Source of the DNA: a virus | Virus record (IMG/VR): IMGVR_UViG_3300043435_000741 | Coordinates: 1 to 33,994 of that record | Direction: 5' to 3' (one strand) | Length of the DNA stretch: 33,994 bases | Part shown: positions 1,713 through 33,994 of the stretch, one piece after another | How positions within the stretch are numbered: the stretch's first letter is position 1 | Layout of the letters: each line of letters starts with the position of its first letter | The notes under the pieces: generated by a model | The model's input: the letters and a program-made list of their open reading frames with translations, nothing else | Told to the model about the DNA's origin: nothing | Database searches by the model: none | Made by a program: the position numbers and the translations under genes

Positions 1713-1817
1713 TTAGTTGTTTTCTAACTCTGTTGGTGGATTTGATTCAATGAATTCTTTTTTAATATCACTGATCGTTTTCCAAGGTTGGCAATCGCAT
1801 CCTTCGCGGCTACACAT
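1713..1817 (-). CDS. Small Cys-containing hypothetical protein (34 aa)
   Basis: This short frame starts at ATG 1817 with a GGAG motif 7 nt upstream and overlaps the end of the exonuclease gene by 8 nt. The product begins MCSREGCDCQPW, with Cys at 2, 7 and 9, and then has an acidic, probably helical tail. Three close Cys suggest a metal site or disulfide, but there are too few residues to name a fold. Its place in a tightly packed operon and its good ribosome site favour a real gene. Function unknown. Confidence 0.5.
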   Translation of the reverse strand: MCSREGCDCQPWKTISDIKKEFIESNPPTELENN

Positions 1818-2559
1818 TTGGTTTCTCCGTATCCCCATTGCAAGAAATGGATAAATCGGTGCTAAATGGGCGGTAATACGGACAATACATACACATTCTA
1901 GATGGTGTTGCCGGTATCAAAGGCCACATTTGAGGATTTTCTTCAACATCAATTGTTGATAACAGTTCGTACACTGAATCCAATCGAGCCAAAGCTGAAA
2001 GTGCTGCGCTTTCATCATAATCATATAACTCAATGTGCATATCTGTTATTTGGCCACCTGTAGGTAAGAAAATAAGGCCAACCTTATTTACTACCGCGCC
2101 CTGTTGGGCTTTTCCGTAGCCGTACAACTGCACTTGGGTAATCTGTTGAGATGTAGCGCCTTCACTGCGCTTGGCTTTTACACCTGCAGGTGAAGTGGTT
2201 TTCCAATCAAGCACATAACCCTTTTCAATATCAAAAAGATCAACAGTTCCAGATAGGTTTGCCCTAATTTGAACCTTTTGCTCTACTTCATACTTTTCAG
2301 GGTATTTGCTAAAAATATCCTCTAAGAAAGAGTGGATGGCGGTACCAACATTGGCTGCCCAGGAACCGCCACCCGACTCATTAGCCTTATCCCAATCCAA
2401 TAACTTGTAAGCCAATCGGCGTACACACTCTTGCCCAACCTCGCTAGGTCCAATATAAACCTGTTGTGATCGTGGCGAATAGCGTGAAGCCTCTGTAATG
2501 ATATTGGTGATTTCATTCGCCAACTCTTTACTTGGACTGTTCAAAGGTGCAAAGGTCAT
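1810..2559 (-). CDS. Cas4/RecB-like PD-(D/E)XK exonuclease
   Basis: This 249-residue DNA exonuclease of the Cas4/RecB type probably processes ends during phage recombination and replication. Visible motifs are GTAIHSFLE (about 72-80, conserved His76), GTVDLFD (104-110, metal-binding Asp107), VLDWKTTS (116-123, the D-x-K catalytic motif) and a Q-x3-Y-type motif near 142-148. One Cys at 45 and three at 223, 226 and 240 match the spacing of the four ligands of a 4Fe-4S cluster in Cas4 and AddB-type nucleases. It follows a small partner gene after a 3-nt gap and precedes the ssDNA-binding-like gene, forming a recombination cassette. No CRISPR array or other cas gene is present. Confidence 0.85.
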   Translation of the reverse strand: MTFAPLNSPSKELANEITNIITEASRYSPRSQQVYIGPSEVGQECVRRLAYKLLDWDKANESGGGSWAANVGTAIHSFLEDIFSKYPEKYEVEQKVQIRANLSGTVDLFDIEKGYVLDWKTTSPAGVKAKRSEGATSQQITQVQLYGYGKAQQGAVVNKVGLIFLPTGGQITDMHIELYDYDESAALSALARLDSVYELLSTIDVEENPQMWPLIPATPSRMCMYCPYYRPFSTDLSISCNGDTEKPNV

Positions 2560-2891: not shown

Positions 2892-3323
2892 TTAGTAATA
2901 GTTTTTGCGCTTAAAATGCTCCCACGCTCCGCAAGGACCGCTTGAGCCGTATCTTCTGCCTATGTAGGCAAGTGCTGCAATCGTTTGGGCAACAGTAGAG
3001 TTACTGCGTTTCATCCCTAGATTGCGATAAGTACCATCCAGTAATTGCCCAACACCTGATGCTGAACTTGTTGGATTATCCTTATCTTGCCAGGCGCTTT
3101 CTTTGCTCATAAGAGCGTTGAAGCACTTGAACTGTTGAGTTGTGAGTAACTCACGCGCCACCTCTTTCGGGTTAACCTGCATCAAGTGCGGGCGATCCTT
3201 ATAGATCACTAGCGCCGGATTAGCAGGCGGTGCCGAAATGGTTTGAACCACTAGAGATGTTGCGATGCTTACGCTCACGATGAGTGCAAGCCTTTTGATG
3301 AGTCTTTTATCTGTTGGTGTAAT
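2892..3323 (-). CDS. Lytic transglycosylase-like (SLT/Rpf-like) protein with possible signal peptide
   Basis: The C-terminal region carries a soluble-transglycosylase pattern: ALMSKESAW with the likely catalytic Glu, then SGVGQL, then ALAYIGRRYGSS and AWEHF. It would cleave peptidoglycan glycan strands. The conventional start is a GTG at 3278 that shares GTGA with the whiB stop, giving 128 residues and an uncharged hydrophobic N-terminus. Extending in frame to an ATT at 3323, which has GGAG 7 nt upstream, gives 143 residues. That form has a Lys/Arg-rich start (DKRLIKRLALIVSVS) and a good secretion signal ending near TISA. I list the longer form but the start is unsettled. Two Cys (52 and 116 from the GTG) could form a disulfide. 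Placement in the early cluster rather than the lysis cassette is odd. Confidence 0.7.
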   Translation of the reverse strand: MTPTDKRLIKRLALIVSVSIATSLVVQTISAPPANPALVIYKDRPHLMQVNPKEVARELLTTQQFKCFNALMSKESAWQDKDNPTSSASGVGQLLDGTYRNLGMKRSNSTVAQTIAALAYIGRRYGSSGPCGAWEHFKRKNYY

Positions 3324-3745
3324 GGTTTAGCTCCTTGTTCAGTTGCAGCATACTTTGTTAAAACACGCCGGATGTAACCACCCGATGTTCCAAGTTGTGC
3401 CGCAATTTCGTTAACAGGCTTCCCCTTTAAGTGCAATTTGATAATGGAAAGTGCCATCCCTTTGAAGGCGTAATCCTTATCTCTTGCCTTGGCATCTCTT
3501 TCGGCAGGTGTTGACCCGCCCCAAATGCCGTGAGGAATCTGTTTTTCTAGTGCGTACTCCAAACACTCCATTCTGTGAATACAACTCTCGCATATCGCTT
3601 TGAGTTGGAGCAGTCTTTCTGCCTCTTGCTTTCGGTTATCGGGAAAGAATAAATCTTTATCCTCAACCTCGGCACATTTTGCTTGTGGAAATTTTGGAAG
3701 ATCAACAAAGAAATCAAGAGTTTTCAACGCTTTTCTTCCAACCAT
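3275..3745 (-). CDS. whiB: WhiB-family iron-sulfur regulator with C-terminal helix-turn-helix
   Basis: This 156-residue protein has the four WhiB cluster Cys: C24, then C52-x2-C55-x5-C61 in ICESCIHRMEC, followed by HGIWGGSTPAER (72-83), the family's turn and start of the basic motif. WhiB proteins bind a 4Fe-4S cluster and tune sigma-factor-dependent transcription in Actinobacteria. Phage versions can interfere with host WhiB control. Here the usual short protein is extended by about 60 residues that look like a helix-turn-helix (about 103-130, VNEIAAQLGTSGGYIRRVL), giving it a second likely DNA-binding part. It overlaps the resolvase gene by 22 nt and the transglycosylase downstream. It is the best host marker in the window. 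Confidence 0.9.
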   Translation of the reverse strand: MVGRKALKTLDFFVDLPKFPQAKCAEVEDKDLFFPDNRKQEAERLLQLKAICESCIHRMECLEYALEKQIPHGIWGGSTPAERDAKARDKDYAFKGMALSIIKLHLKGKPVNEIAAQLGTSGGYIRRVLTKYAATEQGAKPLHQQIKDSSKGLHSS

Positions 3746-4074
3746 TGTGATAAATCCTGAATTACCCAGGCTTTATCAATCCCTGCGTTTCGGCGCTTTA
3801 GGATTATGTAATGAAAAGGCACCTCGGATAAACCGCGAGCCTTTGCATAGTTTTCTGCCTCAACTTCAGCTTCACGCCAAAATTCAGGCAAACTTATTGT
3901 TTTTCTATTCTTGAGTTCAAGAATGTATTGCTTCCCTGCAATGATTGCGACTAAATCGCCTTCATCATTCTTTCCGGCCTTCACCAAACGCTCGCATAAC
4001 GCGCCTGCAGTTCGCAACCAACGCATTACATCAGTTTCAAATTGTGCGCCTTTGCGCCCGTTTGGATTGGCCAT
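3724..4074 (-). CDS. Hjc-like Holliday junction resolvase / PD-(D/E)XK nuclease
   Basis: This 116-residue protein starts NPNGRKGAQFETDVMRWLR, with a conserved Glu13, followed by GKNDEGDLVAI (Asp40) and YILELKNRK (Glu53-x-Lys55). E...D...ExK is the PD-(D/E)XK core as arranged in archaeal Hjc-type resolvases and related phage nucleases. It probably resolves branched replication or recombination intermediates, fitting the neighbouring recombination genes. A role in cutting host DNA is possible. The start at 4074 abuts the stop of the upstream gene, and its end overlaps whiB. Confidence 0.75.
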   Translation of the reverse strand: MANPNGRKGAQFETDVMRWLRTAGALCERLVKAGKNDEGDLVAIIAGKQYILELKNRKTISLPEFWREAEVEAENYAKARGLSEVPFHYIILKRRNAGIDKAWVIQDLSQWLEEKR

Positions 4075-4436
4075 TACTCGACTACTCGCAGTTTGGCTAC
4101 TTTGGTACTCATCTCATCAGCGTTAAAAATACGGCGCTTTTTGATTGAGGTAATAATATCTTGGCAAAGATTGTAAGCCTCATCTTCAGACATTACGGCA
4201 ATGCGCAGAGCCATTTCAGGCATCTCATCCCTAGCCTGATCAAGTTGCTCAACATAACCTTCAGCCTTATATGAAGTGCGGTTTGCGGCCTGAAGTTCAT
4301 CTAGGCAACTCAAATCAACTTGGCCAACTACATCTTCAACCAAATCAACGCAGGCATCACGCTCTTCAAGATAAAGGCAAATCTTGCCTGAATCAGTTGT
4401 GTGGACTGAAAACAAAGGATCGCGTACACGGCTCAT
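4074..4436 (-). CDS. Hypothetical early protein (120 aa)
   Basis: This is an acidic soluble protein without a motif I recognise. It begins SRVRDPLFSVHTTDSG, has an acidic middle with three spaced Cys, and ends in a basic stretch (TSIKKRRIFNADEMSTKVAKLR). The ATG at 4436 is preferred because GGGGGAACAA lies just upstream and the codon shares ATGA with the stop of the small membrane gene. The longer frame from 4448 adds only MGEQ. The same MGEQM artefact appears at the methyltransferase because both ribosome sites read similarly. Early operon position suggests replication or host takeover, but nothing specific. Confidence 0.75.
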   Translation of the reverse strand: MSRVRDPLFSVHTTDSGKICLYLEERDACVDLVEDVVGQVDLSCLDELQAANRTSYKAEGYVEQLDQARDEMPEMALRIAVMSEDEAYNLCQDIITSIKKRRIFNADEMSTKVAKLRVVE

Positions 4437-4552
4437 TTGTTCCCCCAATAATCCTTTATTTCATTATCTAGGAAATTATCTTTCTCGATAATCATCCACA
4501 TAATAAAAAGAAATGCGCTAACAGTTCCAATTGCTAATAGAAATAATTTCAT
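4433..4552 (-). CDS. Small membrane protein (39 aa)
   Basis: The start is ATG 4552 with GGAAAGG about 7 nt upstream, and the stop shares ATGA with the next gene. One membrane helix spans about residues 2-22 (LFLLAIGTVSAFLFIMWMII), followed by a charged tail (EKDNFLDNEIKDYWGNK) that would be cytoplasmic or exposed depending on topology. No family recognised. Small single-pass proteins in early phage operons often act in superinfection exclusion or host membrane interference, but there is no direct sign of that here. Confidence 0.65.
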   Translation of the reverse strand: MKLFLLAIGTVSAFLFIMWMIIEKDNFLDNEIKDYWGNK

Positions 4553-4616: not shown

Positions 4617-5165
4617 CTAGGGTTTTTGAATCTCTATCTGAAACGGGGCGCAGGTGTTTATGTCGTATTTTGAAGATATTTGCAGCGCCTCAATAAACTC
4701 ACCTTGCGCCCATTCAGGCTTGGCTAGGTTGGCTAAGGTGCCGGCAAGGTATCCCAAGGCGTAAGGCGAGCCTGAACCAACGCCGTAAAGGCAATCAATG
4801 CTTTGGCTAATATCAAGTGAATCGCCAATCTCAAATATATTGCCTGCAAAAGCAATCAAAAAGCTGAAACTCACGCCATCTTTCTCAAAATCGTATGAGT
4901 TAGCCTTAAAGGCGGTAACAATGCTTGGGATAATTTTCTTGCCCATAAACCTAACGGGATCAGTGCCATCATAAAGGGGCGGTTTCCAGTTATACATAAG
5001 AATATCGCCTGGCCTGCAATCCCCGGACACGGCAAAGAGGTATTTGCCAATTTTTACGATTTTGGGGGTGCTAGGGGAAAGGGTGCGCTTATCGCCATCG
5101 GTGATTTGGGAATCAGCGCCTAGGATGGCGAAATCTGCCCCCTGGAAGGCAATAATGGTAGTCAT
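4617..5165 (-). CDS. Proteasome/HslV-like Ntn hydrolase
   Basis: This 182-residue protein fits the N-terminal nucleophile (proteasome beta/HslV) fold. After Met the chain starts T-T-I-I, giving a candidate catalytic Thr1. Counting from it, Asp17 lies in LGADSQ, as in HslV and proteasomes, and a Lys at 34 in TPKIVKI matches catalytic Lys33 with a one-residue shift. AVSGD corresponds to the Gly47 region, VGSGSPYALG to the conserved GSGxPYA signature, and KYDINT to the late conserved Asp. The active form would expose Thr1 by removing Met. I chose ATG 5165 because it places Thr at position 1; an ATG 30 nt upstream would bury it. It heads the early unit with no ATPase partner in the window. Substrate and assembly state are unknown. 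Confidence 0.75.
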   Translation of the reverse strand: MTTIIAFQGADFAILGADSQITDGDKRTLSPSTPKIVKIGKYLFAVSGDCRPGDILMYNWKPPLYDGTDPVRFMGKKIIPSIVTAFKANSYDFEKDGVSFSFLIAFAGNIFEIGDSLDISQSIDCLYGVGSGSPYALGYLAGTLANLAKPEWAQGEFIEALQISSKYDINTCAPFQIEIQKP

Positions 5166-5171
5166 TGGCCG

Positions 5172-5177
5172 ATTGTA
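5172..5177 (-). promoter_or_regulatory. Candidate -10 element for the early unit (leaderless start)
   Basis: TACAAT lies on the minus strand six bases upstream of the ATG at 5165, so transcription would begin at or next to the start codon. No Shine-Dalgarno motif is visible there, consistent with leaderless translation, which is common in Actinobacteria. I see no good -35 hexamer. Assigned by eye. Confidence 0.35.
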
Positions 5178-5204
5178 GGGGTTTAGGCTAGACAATGGCG
5201 AAAA

Positions 5205-5229
5205 CCCGCCTACTTCCCCTTTAGGCGGG
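5205..5229. terminator. Hairpin in the divergent intergenic region
   Basis: CCCGCCTA (5205-5212) pairs perfectly with TAGGCGGG (5222-5229) around a 9-nt loop. Minus-strand transcription would meet TTTT just after the stem, as in an intrinsic terminator. The plus side has a weaker CTTTC. It lies between divergent units, directly upstream of the early -10 candidate, so it may insulate the early unit from readthrough. Confidence 0.5.
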
Positions 5230-5239
5230 CTTTCAAGGT

Positions 5240-10106: not shown

Positions 10107-10760
10107 TTAGGCCACATCCCCCGTTGCGTACCAGGTATCGGTTCCGGCTTTCATCAAAGTTATTACTGAAAATTGCGCTCTCGTTTTTGGCGTTGTTGAT
10201 GTAGCACCTGTTGAGGCAAGTGTTACTCCACCCGCGCCAACTACTGTTACTTGGCCTGTTCCAATTTGGATGAGGTTTACAAGTGATCCTGTTGGAAATG
10301 CCACGCTTGAATTAAGTGGAATTGTGTAAGTTTGAGCTGAACCATTAGATGCAGTAACCAAATCATCTCGATCTGTTAAAACAAAAGTATAAGTTGTGCC
10401 AACTTGTGCATTTACGGCTTCAACGCCACCTGCACCAGTAGCACCTGTTGCACCAGTTGCACCTGTAGGACCTGAAGGACCTGTTTCACCAGTTGGACCT
10501 GTTGCACCTACTGGACCTGTTGGGCCAGTAATACCTGTTGCACCTGAAGGACCTACTGAACCTGTTGGGCCAGTTGGACCTGTAGCACCTGCTGCGCCTG
10601 CAGTGTAGGCATACGCCAAAGAGTTCCAGGCAGTAGTACCATCACCAATTTTATATTTAGTGGTATCTGTTTCAAGTCCAAGTTCACCTGCAGCAAGTGT
10701 TGGATTGTTTGAAGTCCAGTTTGCTGCGGTGTCGCGGCGGTTTTGTAGTCTTGAGGTCAT
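10107..10760 (-). CDS. Collagen-like tail fibre protein (217 aa)
   Basis: Residues 1-50 ([20 protein letters not shown], then [17 protein letters not shown]) are a common phage fibre attachment segment that folds as a trimer. Residues about 55-112 are G-x-y collagen repeats ([16 protein letters not shown]...), and the C-terminal about 100 residues form a beta-rich head ([37 protein letters not shown]). The layout is anchor, stalk, head, as in receptor-binding fibres. It lies between a much larger collagen-like protein and the glycine-rich protein. Confidence 0.8.
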
Positions 10761-10780
10761 TTTTTACCTTTTCCTGATTG

Positions 10781-12727
10781 TTAGAAAGAAACTGATGCTC
10801 CACCGGCATCAATAGTATAGGTCCAACTTGAAGTTGTTGAAGTTCCTGCATTGTAAATAATGTCTGGATTGATTGTTGAAGATCCACCATCAAGATAATC
10901 AACAATGTACGCTGCTGCATCTTGGCCGGCAGGGCCAGTAGCACCGGTTGCACCGGTTGCACCAGCAGGGCCAGTATCACCTGTTGCACCAACAGGGCCA
11001 GTGGCACCTGTAGCTCCAACTGCGCCTTGAGGTCCAGTTGGGCCTTGTGATCCTGTAGGGCCTACATCACCTGTTACACCTTGCGGACCAGTTGCACCAA
11101 CAGGGCCAGTTGCACCAACATCGCCTTGATCGCCTTGAATACCTTGTGGACCTGTTGCACCCGTTGGACCTACAGGGCCAGTTGATCCAACTTCACCCTG
11201 GATTCCTTGAGTACCTTGCGGACCTGTAGCACCTGTTGCACCAACAGGACCAGTGGCACCAACAGGGCCAGTTGATCCAACATCGCCTTGCGGGCCAGTA
11301 GCACCAACAGGGCCAGTTGCACCAACTTCACCCTGAATACCCTGGATACCTTGCGGGCCAGTGGCACCGGTTGCACCAATAGGACCAGTCGAGCCTGCAG
11401 GGCCAGTAGGTCCTACATCGCCTGTTACGCCTTGTGGACCAGTGGCACCAGTAGCGCCAACGGGGCCAGTAGCACCAATTGGACCAGTAGGGCCGGTATC
11501 GCCTGTAGCACCTACAGGGCCAGTAGCACCGGTTGCACCAGTTGGACCTTGTGGGCCTTCAACTGCCTGAAGTGATGTAATTACATAAGAATAATGTTGT
11601 GATCCTTCAGTGTAAAAATTAACTGTTCGAGCAGTGCCATCATCATTGCGAGCATACAACTCAATAATCATACGATCAGTTTCATCAACTGCCGAACTTG
11701 GCAACACAATCTCAAGCTGAGTAAGCATTGGATTTGCGCCATCGTAAGGAATTAATGTTGCATCTGTATCACCAATTGTTGCTAAAACAGTGCCTGCATT
11801 ATTTGCCAACTTTAAGCGTGCAAAAGCGTAAACATCTGAACCGCTTGTTGGCTTTGAAAAAAACATATAAAAGCGTTGTGCGCCTGCAGGAATTAAAGTA
11901 AATCCAAATGGCTCGCTTATGTATTGCTGCATTAATTCAGTTGAATTTCCTGCAACAGAGTTAGTAACAGTTGCCATTGAGGCAGTTGTTGGCTCTGTAC
12001 CTAATTGCTTAAATCCTGTTAACTCTGTAATGGATTCATTGAAATAGTAGAAACGGCCAGTTGAGTAACCTTGTGGGCCAGTAGCACCTGTAGCACCTGT
12101 TGGACCTTCAACACCGGTTGCGCCAATCGGTCCAGTAGATCCTGTAGCACCGGTTGGACCAGTAAGGCCAGTAGGTCCAACTTCACCGGTTGCACCGGTT
12201 GCACCTACGGGGCCAGTGGCACCTGCAGGCCCGGTTGGACCTGTTGCACCTGTTGGGCCTTCAATACCCTGAATACCCTGGATGCCTTGCGGTCCAGTTT
12301 GGCCGATAGGTCCAGTTGATCCGATAGGACCAGTTACGCCTGTTGGGCCAATCTCACCTTGCGGGCCAGTAGCGCCTATATCACCTTGCGGACCTGTAGC
12401 ACCGGTTGGACCTTCAACGCCTTGAATACCCTGGATGCCTTGAATACCTTGGGGGCCAGTTGCTCCAATAGGTCCAGTTACGCCTGTTGGACCGATAGGG
12501 CCAGTAGATCCTGTAGGACCTGTAGCACCGATAGGACCAGTAACACCGATAGGGCCAGTTACGCCTGTTTGTCCAATTGGACCAGTGGCACCGGTTGGAC
12601 CTGTAGGGCCAGTGGCACCTGCAGGGCCTTGTGGGCCTTGCTCATTGGAAATAATTACCTCTGCAGTTGAGGCAATTTCAACAATTACATCAGTTGTGCT
12701 TGAGGATACATAGACAATTGAACTCAT
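10781..12727 (-). CDS. Large collagen-like fibre protein (648 aa)
   Basis: A short N-terminal beta segment (about 1-30) leads into a first G-x-y collagen run (about 31-220), a globular beta domain (about 225-385, [20 protein letters not shown]...), a second collagen run (about 386-605) and a 40-residue end ([20 protein letters not shown]). Triplets are mostly [12 protein letters not shown] and GIQGIQ. Phage collagen repeats form trimeric stalks, so this is probably a long tail fibre or virion surface fibre with two shafts. The DNA is highly repetitive and may vary in length. It overlaps the upstream gene by 4 nt. Confidence 0.85.
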
Positions 12728-19516: not shown

Positions 19517-19906
19517 TTAGGATTTTGTGATTGTACCACTGATAGGCCAAGTAACAGATGCAGTTGCAAGTTCGCCAACTGCTCCATTAAGCGGTGTCCA
19601 TTCTGAAACCAACGCTGAAAAACTGTATGCAGGTGATGCACCGGCTACAGGGCGAACTGTAACTGAAACTGCAGTTCCTATTGTTGGGTAAATTGTTGCC
19701 TCAAGTGCGCTTGCTGCATAATCCTGATTAAACTCAAAAGCAACAGAATTATCTGCAAGGCCAGCCACTCTTGTACGGGCGGTGTTGCCAAACGCAGTGG
19801 TTTCAACAACATCTAGTGTTGAAGATAAAGTTACGCTAGTTACATAACTTGAAATATCGGTTGTGCCAAATGTAACTGCAACATTTGTGAGTACGATTCT
19901 TGCCAT
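19517..19906 (-). CDS. Major tail tube protein, paralogue 2
   Basis: This 129-residue tail-tube-like protein shares its start (MARIVLTN), core (VVETTAFGN.ARTR.AGLADNSVA.EF.QDYAA) and C-terminal segment (SFSALVSEWTPLNGAVGELA) with the upstream gene. It differs mainly in the loop after the DYAA region. Tube subunits of this fold stack in rings to form the siphovirus tail. Both copies could build a mixed tube, or one could be a tube terminator. It starts one base past the upstream gene's stop. Confidence 0.75.
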   Translation of the reverse strand: MARIVLTNVAVTFGTTDISSYVTSVTLSSTLDVVETTAFGNTARTRVAGLADNSVAFEFNQDYAASALEATIYPTIGTAVSVTVRPVAGASPAYSFSALVSEWTPLNGAVGELATASVTWPISGTITKS

Positions 19907-20326
19907 TTATGAAACCGCCTTTGTGATTGCGCCGTCAATTGGCCAAGTAACAGATGCAGTTGCAAGTTCGCCAACGGCTCCGTTAAGTGGGGTCCATTCT
20001 GAAACCAACGCTGAAAAACTGTATGCAGGGTTATCGGCTGCAGTTGTAGCACCATTTGGCTTTACAACTACTGCAGTTACTGTTCCTACAAGAGATGAAC
20101 CTGCTGCGTTGATTGTTGCCTCAACTGAATTAGCCGCGTAATCCTGATGAAACTCAAGAGCAACAGAATTATCTGCAAGGCCACCGATTCGTGTACGCGC
20201 AGATGTTCCAAATGCAGTGGTTTCAACAACATCATCAGTTGTTGTTAGCGTAACACTGCCAATATGATCAGAAAGATTTACGCCGTTAATTGTAATGTAC
20301 GCGTTTGTTAGGACTATGCGGGCCAT
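19907..20326 (-). CDS. Major tail tube protein, paralogue 1
   Basis: This 139-residue protein shares the tube signature with paralogue 2: MARIVLTNAYITINGVNLSD, then TTAFGTSARTRIGGLADNSV and the SFSALVSEWTPLNGAVGELA segment. The loop between the last strands is longer (NAAGSSLVGTVTAVVVKPNG) than in paralogue 2. It follows the neck genes directly. The C-terminal coding DNA of the two copies is nearly identical, which indicates duplication or recent conversion. Confidence 0.75.
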   Translation of the reverse strand: MARIVLTNAYITINGVNLSDHIGSVTLTTTDDVVETTAFGTSARTRIGGLADNSVALEFHQDYAANSVEATINAAGSSLVGTVTAVVVKPNGATTAADNPAYSFSALVSEWTPLNGAVGELATASVTWPIDGAITKAVS

Positions 20327-23834: not shown

Positions 23835-24956
23835 CTATTTTGTGTTGTTGATAATTGCTTTTGCTAGGCGTAGGGAAATTGAACGGCCTGCAGTAGCGTT
23901 TGAATCTGCCGATTCTAGCTCAAGTTCAGGCTCTTCAACTTCAATTTCCTCTTCAGGCTCTCCACCTGTAAGCATTGCCATCATTTCAACGGCCTTCATA
24001 ATGTAATCGTGGCCTTCGCTTAAATCTTCAAAAATGGTATTTAGCACAACCAAAGATTCGCCTGTTACTTCACGGCCTTCCTTAATTGCTTCAATTGCAT
24101 TGCGTAATGCTTCGCGTGCCTCAACACTTGTTGTTGGGTAGGCAGGATAAGTAACCACTGAAACATCTCCATCTGCTAGTGAAACTTCAGTAAGGGTGCG
24201 AACCGAACGATCATCATTCCACTTTTGGCGAATGACTCGGAAAGCAAAACTCATCTGATCAACATCTCCACGCTCAACCAACTTATACAAATCACGGCCT
24301 TCATTTGTATCTGCAATTACTGCATCCATAAATAGGCCACGCTCATCTTCAGTGAGTGTGAGAGTTCCATTCTTAGTGCGAGCCAAAGGCAAACCTTCGT
24401 GATTTATGAGAAGGCGTACATCCGGTGTTTCGCTCAAAGTCTTGCGAAATGCACCAGGGGCAATTGTTTCTTTGAAAGGTAGGGGAACGCTTGCATCATT
24501 GAATACTGCAGCGTAGCCGCGTAAGCGCATTGTTCCATCTTCAGTTTGGCGTGCTTCAACATCTTGAACTGTAAATGTACGGCGTTCGATTTTTTTGCTC
24601 ATTTTGCTCCTTGAATCGGCTTCAGCATCTAGTGCATCTATCTTGCTTTGCGCCCAGTTTTGCGCTCTATCACTGAAATTGGAATCTCCACCCCACAACA
24701 ACCAGGCAACTAAACCTGCGCCTGGATATTCGGGATCTGATGGATTGTTATTTTTTGGTGCTTGCCCATCAACTTTATGGCGGGCAAACCAGGGTGCCAT
24801 CTTGCGAACTTTGTTATCAGATATATTTCCTGCAGCCATCTCGCGTGCTTCACGCTTTGTGCCTTCAGTTAATCCATCTCCCCCAAAGCCTTCATCTAGG
24901 TATTTCAAACCGCGTGCTGCATTTTCTTGCATATATTCAGGTGCGGAAAATGGCAT
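23835..24956 (-). CDS. HK97 prohead protease fused to an N-terminal helical domain
   Basis: This 373-residue protein has two parts. Residues 1-about 115 form a helical domain (ENAARGLKYLDEGFGGDGLT, KVRKMAPWFARHKVD, VAWLLWGGDS) that is found fused to head proteases in some actinophages. Residues about 119-330 are the HK97 prohead protease (Peptidase_U35), with LLINHEG carrying the catalytic His and VDQMSFAFRV the catalytic Ser. The acidic tail (EPEEEIEVEEPELELE) follows. An internal in-frame ATG at 24602 has a strong AAGGAG site, so a second 255-residue protease form is likely. Start and stop overlap the portal by one base (24956). Confidence 0.85.
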   Translation of the reverse strand: MPFSAPEYMQENAARGLKYLDEGFGGDGLTEGTKREAREMAAGNISDNKVRKMAPWFARHKVDGQAPKNNNPSDPEYPGAGLVAWLLWGGDSNFSDRAQNWAQSKIDALDAEADSRSKMSKKIERRTFTVQDVEARQTEDGTMRLRGYAAVFNDASVPLPFKETIAPGAFRKTLSETPDVRLLINHEGLPLARTKNGTLTLTEDERGLFMDAVIADTNEGRDLYKLVERGDVDQMSFAFRVIRQKWNDDRSVRTLTEVSLADGDVSVVTYPAYPTTSVEAREALRNAIEAIKEGREVTGESLVVLNTIFEDLSEGHDYIMKAVEMMAMLTGGEPEEEIEVEEPELELESADSNATAGRSISLRLAKAIINNTK

Positions 24957-33440: not shown

Positions 33441-33994
33441 TCGGCAACCATTGAGTTAATAATCCAACTTACAACAGGCACCGCTACCGCGTTGCCCATT
33501 TGCTTATATCTATTTGAATCGGCTTGGCCATCAGTCCAACCATCAGGGAACCCTTGAAGGCGCTCACATTCTGTTGGGGTTAAACGGCGCACAACTGATT
33601 CATTTACAACACCTGGAACCTGTTGCCTATCAAGAGTGTATGCCGGTGCATTTTCATCACCAATACCTGTTCCGTTTTGGTGCTTTTCAATCTCTCTTGC
33701 ATCATCTATTGGAAATACCACTGCTGCCCCGTTCCCATTTGCTCGAAGGGTTGGAGAAGCACTTTCACTAGCCTGAACATCCATTCCTTGCGTATGTCCA
33801 AATATCATAGGCACATTTCCACCCCCTGTTCCATATCGTGAAATAACTGTTGGCACAATGCCATCTTCATACACACGCACATCATTAACGCGTGTGCCAT
33901 CAATAATTAAGAATTGATCATTGCTAGTAGCAAGAGTAAAACTCTTATCAGAATACATTAATCCCTTCCCCCCCCCCCGCACATCCCTCGCGGT
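33437..33994 (-). CDS. DNA (cytosine-5) methyltransferase, C-terminal part (runs off the window)
   Basis: This frame is open to the window edge and encodes the end of a Dcm-type methyltransferase: variable-region pieces (DKSFTLATSNDQFLIIDG, ASPTLRANGNGAAVV, APAYTLDRQQVPGV), then RRLTPTECERLQGFPDGWTD (the conserved end of the target-recognition region) and YKQMGNAVAVPVV (motifs IX-X). It joins the N-terminal part at 195-938 through the contig ends. The edge near 33967-33979 is a long C-run, a likely place for assembly to break. The end repeats show that at least two variants of the variable region occur. Confidence 0.85.
   Translation of the reverse strand, partial: TARDVRGGGKGLMYSDKSFTLATSNDQFLIIDGTRVNDVRVYEDGIVPTVISRYGTGGGNVPMIFGHTQGMDVQASESASPTLRANGNGAAVVFPIDDAREIEKHQNGTGIGDENAPAYTLDRQQVPGVVNESVVRRLTPTECERLQGFPDGWTDGQADSNRYKQMGNAVAVPVVSWIINSMVAE
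33817..33910. repeat. End repeat, copy 2 (contig overlap)
   Basis: This stretch matches window positions 1-94 with four mismatches. After it the sequences differ: copy 2 continues GAATTGATC (encoding SNDQFLIIDG in the methyltransferase) and copy 1 continues AACAGTGGC (encoding EAFATVLIIDG). Both flanks read as real phage Dcm linkers, so two alleles may be present in the sampled population. Confidence 0.8.

Follow-up and report, generated by a model that had tools for sequence, protein, structure and literature searches.

The viral record analysed here (IMGVR_UViG_3300043435_000741; 33,994 nucleotides, hereafter the window) encodes a catalytically complete proteasome-like Ntn hydrolase, a reading supported by profile matches, predicted fold and a conserved active site. 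In the simplest reading of the upstream sequence, its mRNA is leaderless and starts at the ATG. As far as the literature was searched, the conserved early-operon, leaderless setting of this Ntn gene in whiB phages is undescribed.

The gene is read on the minus strand from an ATG at 5165 to a stop at 4619-4617 (182 codons). A previous interpretation made from the DNA without database searches (the sequence-only reading) had described an HslV-like Ntn hydrolase at 4617-5165; the coordinates stand, but the strand is minus, and the plus-strand frame was rejected for its many stops. From this ATG, the protein reads MTTIIAFQGADFAILGADSQ...PSTPKIV...VSGDCRPGD...GVGSGSPYALG...KYDINT. In mature numbering, with Met removed, Thr1 is codon 2 (T2), Asp17 is D18, Lys34 is K35, and the oxyanion Gly47 is G48. 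Gly-Ser-Gly occupies positions 130-132, and the late Asp in KYDINT is D168, the equivalent of proteasome Asp166, with Thr171 in the same motif. Every residue named from the sequence alone (Thr1, Asp17, Lys34, GSG, and the late KYDINT Asp) was therefore found, as was the proposed one-residue insertion, since Lys34 sits one residue after proteasome Lys33.

Table 1. Features of the Ntn hydrolase operon and its upstream region.
Feature	Position	Strand	Remarks
GC-rich hairpin then TTTT	5201..5230	-	just upstream of promoter; direct reading of sequence
-10 box TACAAT	5172..5177	-	6 nt before ATG, no Shine-Dalgarno; putative leaderless mRNA promoter
Proteasome-like group I Ntn hydrolase	4617..5165	-	182 aa; 181 without Met
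Small predicted membrane protein, MKLFLLAIGTVSAFLFIMWMIIEKD...	4430..4552	-	39 aa; second gene, ggaaagg ahead
Conserved gene, family c15	4074..4448	-	found in 41 loci
RusA/Hjc-like Holliday junction resolvase	3724..4074	-	phrog_244 5.5e-20; related ORFs in 108 loci
WhiB transcription factor, C-terminal HTH	3275..3745	-	PF02467 2e-15
Transglycosylase-like protein in recombination operon	2892-3278	-	phrog_12661 2.3e-19; same place in 33 loci
PD-(D/E)XK (RecB/Cas4-like) nuclease, same operon as Ntn	1810..2559	-	PF12705 4.9e-8; related ORFs in 123 loci

Sequence profiles and fold matches together place the protein in the proteasome-like family far beyond chance. It matches Pfam PF00227 (Proteasome; E=4.8e-6, 26.8 bits, gathering cut-off 22.4) and phrog_1040, the 'peptidase HslV family' (E=3.1e-25, residues 8-191 of 192). 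A profile of 11 relatives searched against the PDB retrieves HslV (5.5e-13), BPH (Betaproteobacteria proteasome homologue; 4e-11), and also proteasome beta subunits. The single-chain AlphaFold2 model, built from eight phage sequences (the window protein and seven relatives), has a pLDDT of 86.9 and a pTM of 0.83. Foldseek ranks BPH first for this model (E ~1e-10, TM 0.76), HslV next, and then proteasome beta and Anbu. The Ntn fold assumed in the sequence-only reading is thus predicted. Structure matches in BFVD include many phage relatives, one of which, from an uncultured Caudovirales phage, is already named HslV peptidase subunit. In the model, the N-terminal Thr, Asp17, the Lys33 equivalent, and the oxyanion Gly lie on an alpha-beta-beta-alpha core. 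The predicted helices are H1 (50-58), H2 (70-88), H3 (133-141/144-147), and H4 (150-167), with no H5, and the C-terminus is a strand (176-180). Group I comprises compact proteasome homologues (HslV/BPH/AAH/PPH), phage members included (PMC8665760). The compact H1-H4 architecture without H5 fits the description by Fuchs, Alva and Lupas (PMC8665760), and on this predicted structure the Ntn protein belongs to group I.

An IMG/VR scan confirmed 119 relatives, and a second scan found at least 555. Among 160 aligned homologues, K35, G130, and G132 are kept in all 160, T2 and D18 in 159 each, and S131 in 156; the Thr1 and Lys34 of the sequence-only reading are thus conserved. The start codon lies immediately 5' of the Thr codon in nearly all of these homologues, and hence no propeptide is needed. 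The gene is under strong purifying selection: dN/dS is 0.057-0.133 when the window gene is compared with homologues that are 76-98% identical to it.

The window protein belongs to a distinct Ntn clade found in whiB-carrying freshwater actinophages; a sister clade is 50-54% identical to it. Homologues on plasmids of rhizobia, Paraburkholderia, Bacillus, and Streptomyces form, with phages of Vibrio, Aeromonas, Psychrobacter, and similar hosts, another supported clade (marked MTC). The tree is weakly resolved at depth, with HslV, mycobacterial, and several phage rows as long branches, and the exact sister group is left unclaimed. Aeromonas phage 2L372X (L092) has two adjoining genes both annotated as peptidase HslV family, which might form a two-subunit system. 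In about 10 loci, the Ntn gene seemed to have tandem paralogues; these were rejected as spurious antisense ORFs that single-linkage clustering had drawn in.

A scan of chromosomal contigs returned only two mycobacterial proteins (46% identity over 41 residues), and the one match at E<=1e-6 among 396 Actinomycetota genomes is a true HslV next to a true HslU. This contig scan and these 396 genomes thus yielded no close source on an actinobacterial chromosome. The Ntn gene has no match in the PADLOC defence-system library. Separately, Mycobacterium sp. IS-1742 (L163:8001-8699) has a 232-aa chromosomal proteasome-like protein beside a cytochrome P450-like gene; with 33 bits, it stays below the cut-off for the bacterial beta subunit (192) and is distinct from that protein.

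WhiB is a marker of actinophages (PMC10202952; PMC6802176), and all 19 of the long related contigs that were tested encode it. Judged by its own WhiB gene, the window virus is an actinophage. Its TerL is nearest to that of Pontimonas phage phiPsal1 (49%), and its capsid is nearest to those of mycobacteriophages. Ntn homologues at 29-31% identity occur in E7 and F5 (OX376640/OX376641), phages of 'Ca. Planktophila' LanE-43 that are in culture (PMC10202952). OX376641.1 is Planktophila phage LanE43-AprF5, and its GenBank organism label is 'Caudovirales sp. ct2KA10'.

Other features of the window concern the record itself and its tail genes. Positions 1-94 and 33817-33910 form a terminal repeat that is 96% identical and not exact, and a cytosine methyltransferase is split across the contig ends (195-950 and 33437-33982). 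The record therefore appears to be an almost complete genome, circularly permuted and cut within the methyltransferase gene. In the tail region, two adjoining similar genes of 129 and 139 aa (19517-20326, minus strand; DNA stretches 78-90% identical) are a recent tandem duplication, and two tail genes at 10107-12727 (minus strand) contain long collagen-like GPTGATGP repeats.

The position of the Ntn gene as the first of its unit, proposed from the sequence alone, holds across relatives, where it heads a conserved recombination/WhiB operon. In the window clade, the order is Ntn, (small gene), c15, RusA-like resolvase, WhiB, transglycosylase-like gene, c23, and PD-(D/E)XK nuclease; in the sister clade, it is Ntn, nuclease, c4, WhiB, c6, and RusA. 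The window WhiB carries an extra C-terminal helix-turn-helix and is longer than the sister-clade WhiB ORFs. By mechanical ORF calls, 126 of 157 loci have an upstream neighbour that runs opposite to the Ntn gene.

Leaderless mRNAs are common in actinobacteria. Of 110 distinct loci, 105 have a TANNNT motif that ends 6-7 nt before the Ntn start, whereas other offsets average 3.7 loci; an SD-like motif precedes the start in seven of the 110. In 12 distant phage relatives, by contrast, an SD-like motif is present in 10 and the -10 box in none. The hairpin upstream of the promoter is terminator-like and may insulate the Ntn unit. Sister-clade loci (e.g., L024, L051) have a conserved palindrome-like element, GTGTCGC...GCGACGACACGCC, about 20-45 nt before the Ntn start and upstream of the -10 box. 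A phage regulator may use this element as its operator.

The content of the operon suggests early expression of the Ntn gene. The early region of phiPsal1 is comparable, with a divergent regulator, exonuclease, WhiB, Holliday junction resolvase, and replication genes. This phage, the nearest cultured TerL relative, is absent from the tblastn matches to the window Ntn gene, which indicates that the gene is accessory in the broader phage group. In F5, a cultured Nanopelagicales phage (L084:1661-6537), the Ntn homologue directly follows terL and portal, and an early role is thus not universal in the wider family.

The sequence-only reading had stated that no ATPase partner is encoded. This was confirmed for AAA and AAA_2 domains, of which none was found in the window and 19 related contigs (contigs that may be incomplete) by a search that was positive in 14 of 14 control genomes. 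The P-loop ATPases seen in the window are only a RecA-like primase-helicase and the terminase. HslU scored above cut-off in one of 198 sampled Actinomycetota genomes, which also has a true HslV, whereas AAA+ proteins below the HslU cut-off and consistent with ClpX occur in essentially all of them. Given no phage AAA/AAA_2 protein and this rarity of HslU, an unfoldase partner, if there is one, would come from the general unfoldases of the host (ClpX, ClpC, or ARC/Mpa).

These observations are consistent with an early-made, propeptide-free, self-compartmentalising threonine protease of the BPH type without a dedicated unfoldase, a model given an even chance of being right. It draws on the family and fold, the invariant active site, purifying selection, the compact group I architecture, the first-gene position, the leaderless promoter, the absence of AAA/AAA_2, the rarity of HslU, an intermediate pore loop, and the comparable layout of the phiPsal1 early region. 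With the -10 box of its promoter only 6-7 nt from the ATG, the early operon would give an mRNA that starts at the coding sequence and is translated without a leader. Host methionine aminopeptidase would then strip the Met and expose Thr1, and the subunits would associate as two paired, closed homo-oligomeric rings of the HslV/BPH type that enclose the active sites; for both steps, the fold and active site are those predicted by homology and modelling. With no phage unfoldase and HslU mostly absent from the host phylum, the ring may act ATP-free on unfolded, small, or specific proteins, or it may be supplied by a general host unfoldase. As the first protein made, the protease would clear selected proteins of the host (or early proteins of the phage) as takeover proceeds. 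BPH and Anbu likewise lack an unfoldase and were inert on standard peptides and casein (PMC5777263). Thus, a protein with an intact active site need not be a general protease, and specific substrates or an activator yet to be found are to be expected. The degradation of host or defence proteins, put forward in the sequence-only reading, is suggested by gene position. A fuller version, in which a phage 'mini-proteasome' is the first protein made, leaderless and self-assembling, and removes specific host proteins (regulators, defence/restriction factors) either ATP-free or via a captured host unfoldase, is offered tentatively and is rather doubtful.

Other roles were weighed against this protease model. 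The protein could be a protease subunit that docks on a host AAA+ unfoldase (ClpX, ClpC, or ARC/Mpa) and turns it against host or defence substrates. The relative HslV requires such a partner, none was found in the phage and its 19 relatives, and ClpX-consistent proteins are nearly ubiquitous in the sampled phylum. However, HslU is missing from 197 of the 198 genomes and group I homologues do not co-occur with AAA+ proteins (PMC8665760), and docking is considered unlikely. Instead of a general protease, the protein could be, like connectase, a hydrolase or ligase specific for one protein or a small molecule, and it may work as a monomer. This would agree with the inertness of BPH and Anbu, and the proteasome-like family does contain a monomeric ligase (PMC8665760). 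This role is improbable as well: the model retains the ring-contact helix pairs H1-H4, the two-helix insertion of connectase is absent, and the nearest structures are HslV and BPH. The placement of the F5 homologue after terL and portal would suit a capsid (prohead) maturation protease or a virion component. Such a role is very improbable for the window protein, whose gene lies in the early operon distant from the head genes, in a genome with its own HK97-type head maturation protease (23835-24956; phrog_80, 1.3e-55).

In the literature searched, no function is assigned to a phage proteasome homologue, and the substrates of BPH, AAH, PPH, and Anbu still await identification. The Ntn clade is common (at least 555 relatives), strongly constrained, and bound to one operon and one promoter, which probably narrows its function to the early takeover stage and makes it a testable system. 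The homologues in the cultured Planktophila phages E7 and F5 make natural-host experiments possible. If true, the mini-proteasome reading would give a viral proteasome homologue its first functional role, and the hosts hit would be abundant freshwater actinobacteria.

Among known systems, HslV (ClpQ) shares with the window protein the fold, the Thr1/Asp17/Lys33 layout, and the GSG motif. The layout claimed in the sequence-only reading is accordingly proteasome-like, but strict HslV identity was rejected. The protein scores 14.4 and 16.6 bits against the equivalogs TIGR03692 and NF003964 (157.75 and 137), HslU was not found in the 20 phage genomes and is rare in the host phylum, and the Asp166 column differs: the residue aligned with D168 is Cys in three HslV rows and Asp in an archaeal proteasome beta subunit and the window family, which makes the catalytic surroundings look proteasome-like at this position. 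Unlike HslV, the window protein also has a longer pore loop.

BPH is the nearest solved fold and likewise combines a compact subunit without S12/H5, the T1-D17-K33 layout, and no unfoldase. However, identity is about 20%, and the window protein is phage-borne with a shorter, less acidic pore loop. The HslV linker is short, whereas the BPH loop is long, strongly acidic, and thought to recognise substrate, with five successive Asp/Glu in Cm-BPH (PMC5777263). The H2-S7 loop has 10-15 residues and a net charge of -1 or -2 in all 147 clade sequences, which by length and charge appears intermediate between HslV and BPH. The Anbu-like self-compartment raised in the sequence-only reading is unlikely, as an Anbu-type open ring involves the coiled-coil helix H5, whereas the model ends in a strand. 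PPH was rejected because it has about 140 residues and no H2, whereas the window protein has 182 and a predicted H2.

AAH and PPH nevertheless resemble the window protein in their compact group I architecture, occurrence in phages, and lack of an AAA+ partner (PMC8665760). In the 2021 survey, AAH turned up in no phage specific to Actinobacteria (Fuchs, Alva and Lupas, PMC8665760), whereas the window clade sits in whiB phages and touches this gap; AAH membership itself is left undecided. Further phage proteasome homologues are already known: Alteromonas phage V22 encodes a 'Proteasome-like' protein (PMC7289586), an Erythrobacter phage has a proteasome gene (PMC9127768), a Citromicrobium phage has BPH (PMC8953757), and several annotated actinophages carry a homologue. 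The phrog_1040 family is also annotated in Aeromonas, Vibrio, Moorella, and Tunturiibacter phages, but its named phage members are at most about 34% identical to the window clade, which forms a separate group. Planktophila phages E7/F5 and the actinophages DSL-LC01, Pumpernickel, and Hum25 share the same catalytic residues at about 28-34% identity, but they differ from the window clade in gene neighbourhood and in the SD-like motifs that mark most of the distant relatives.
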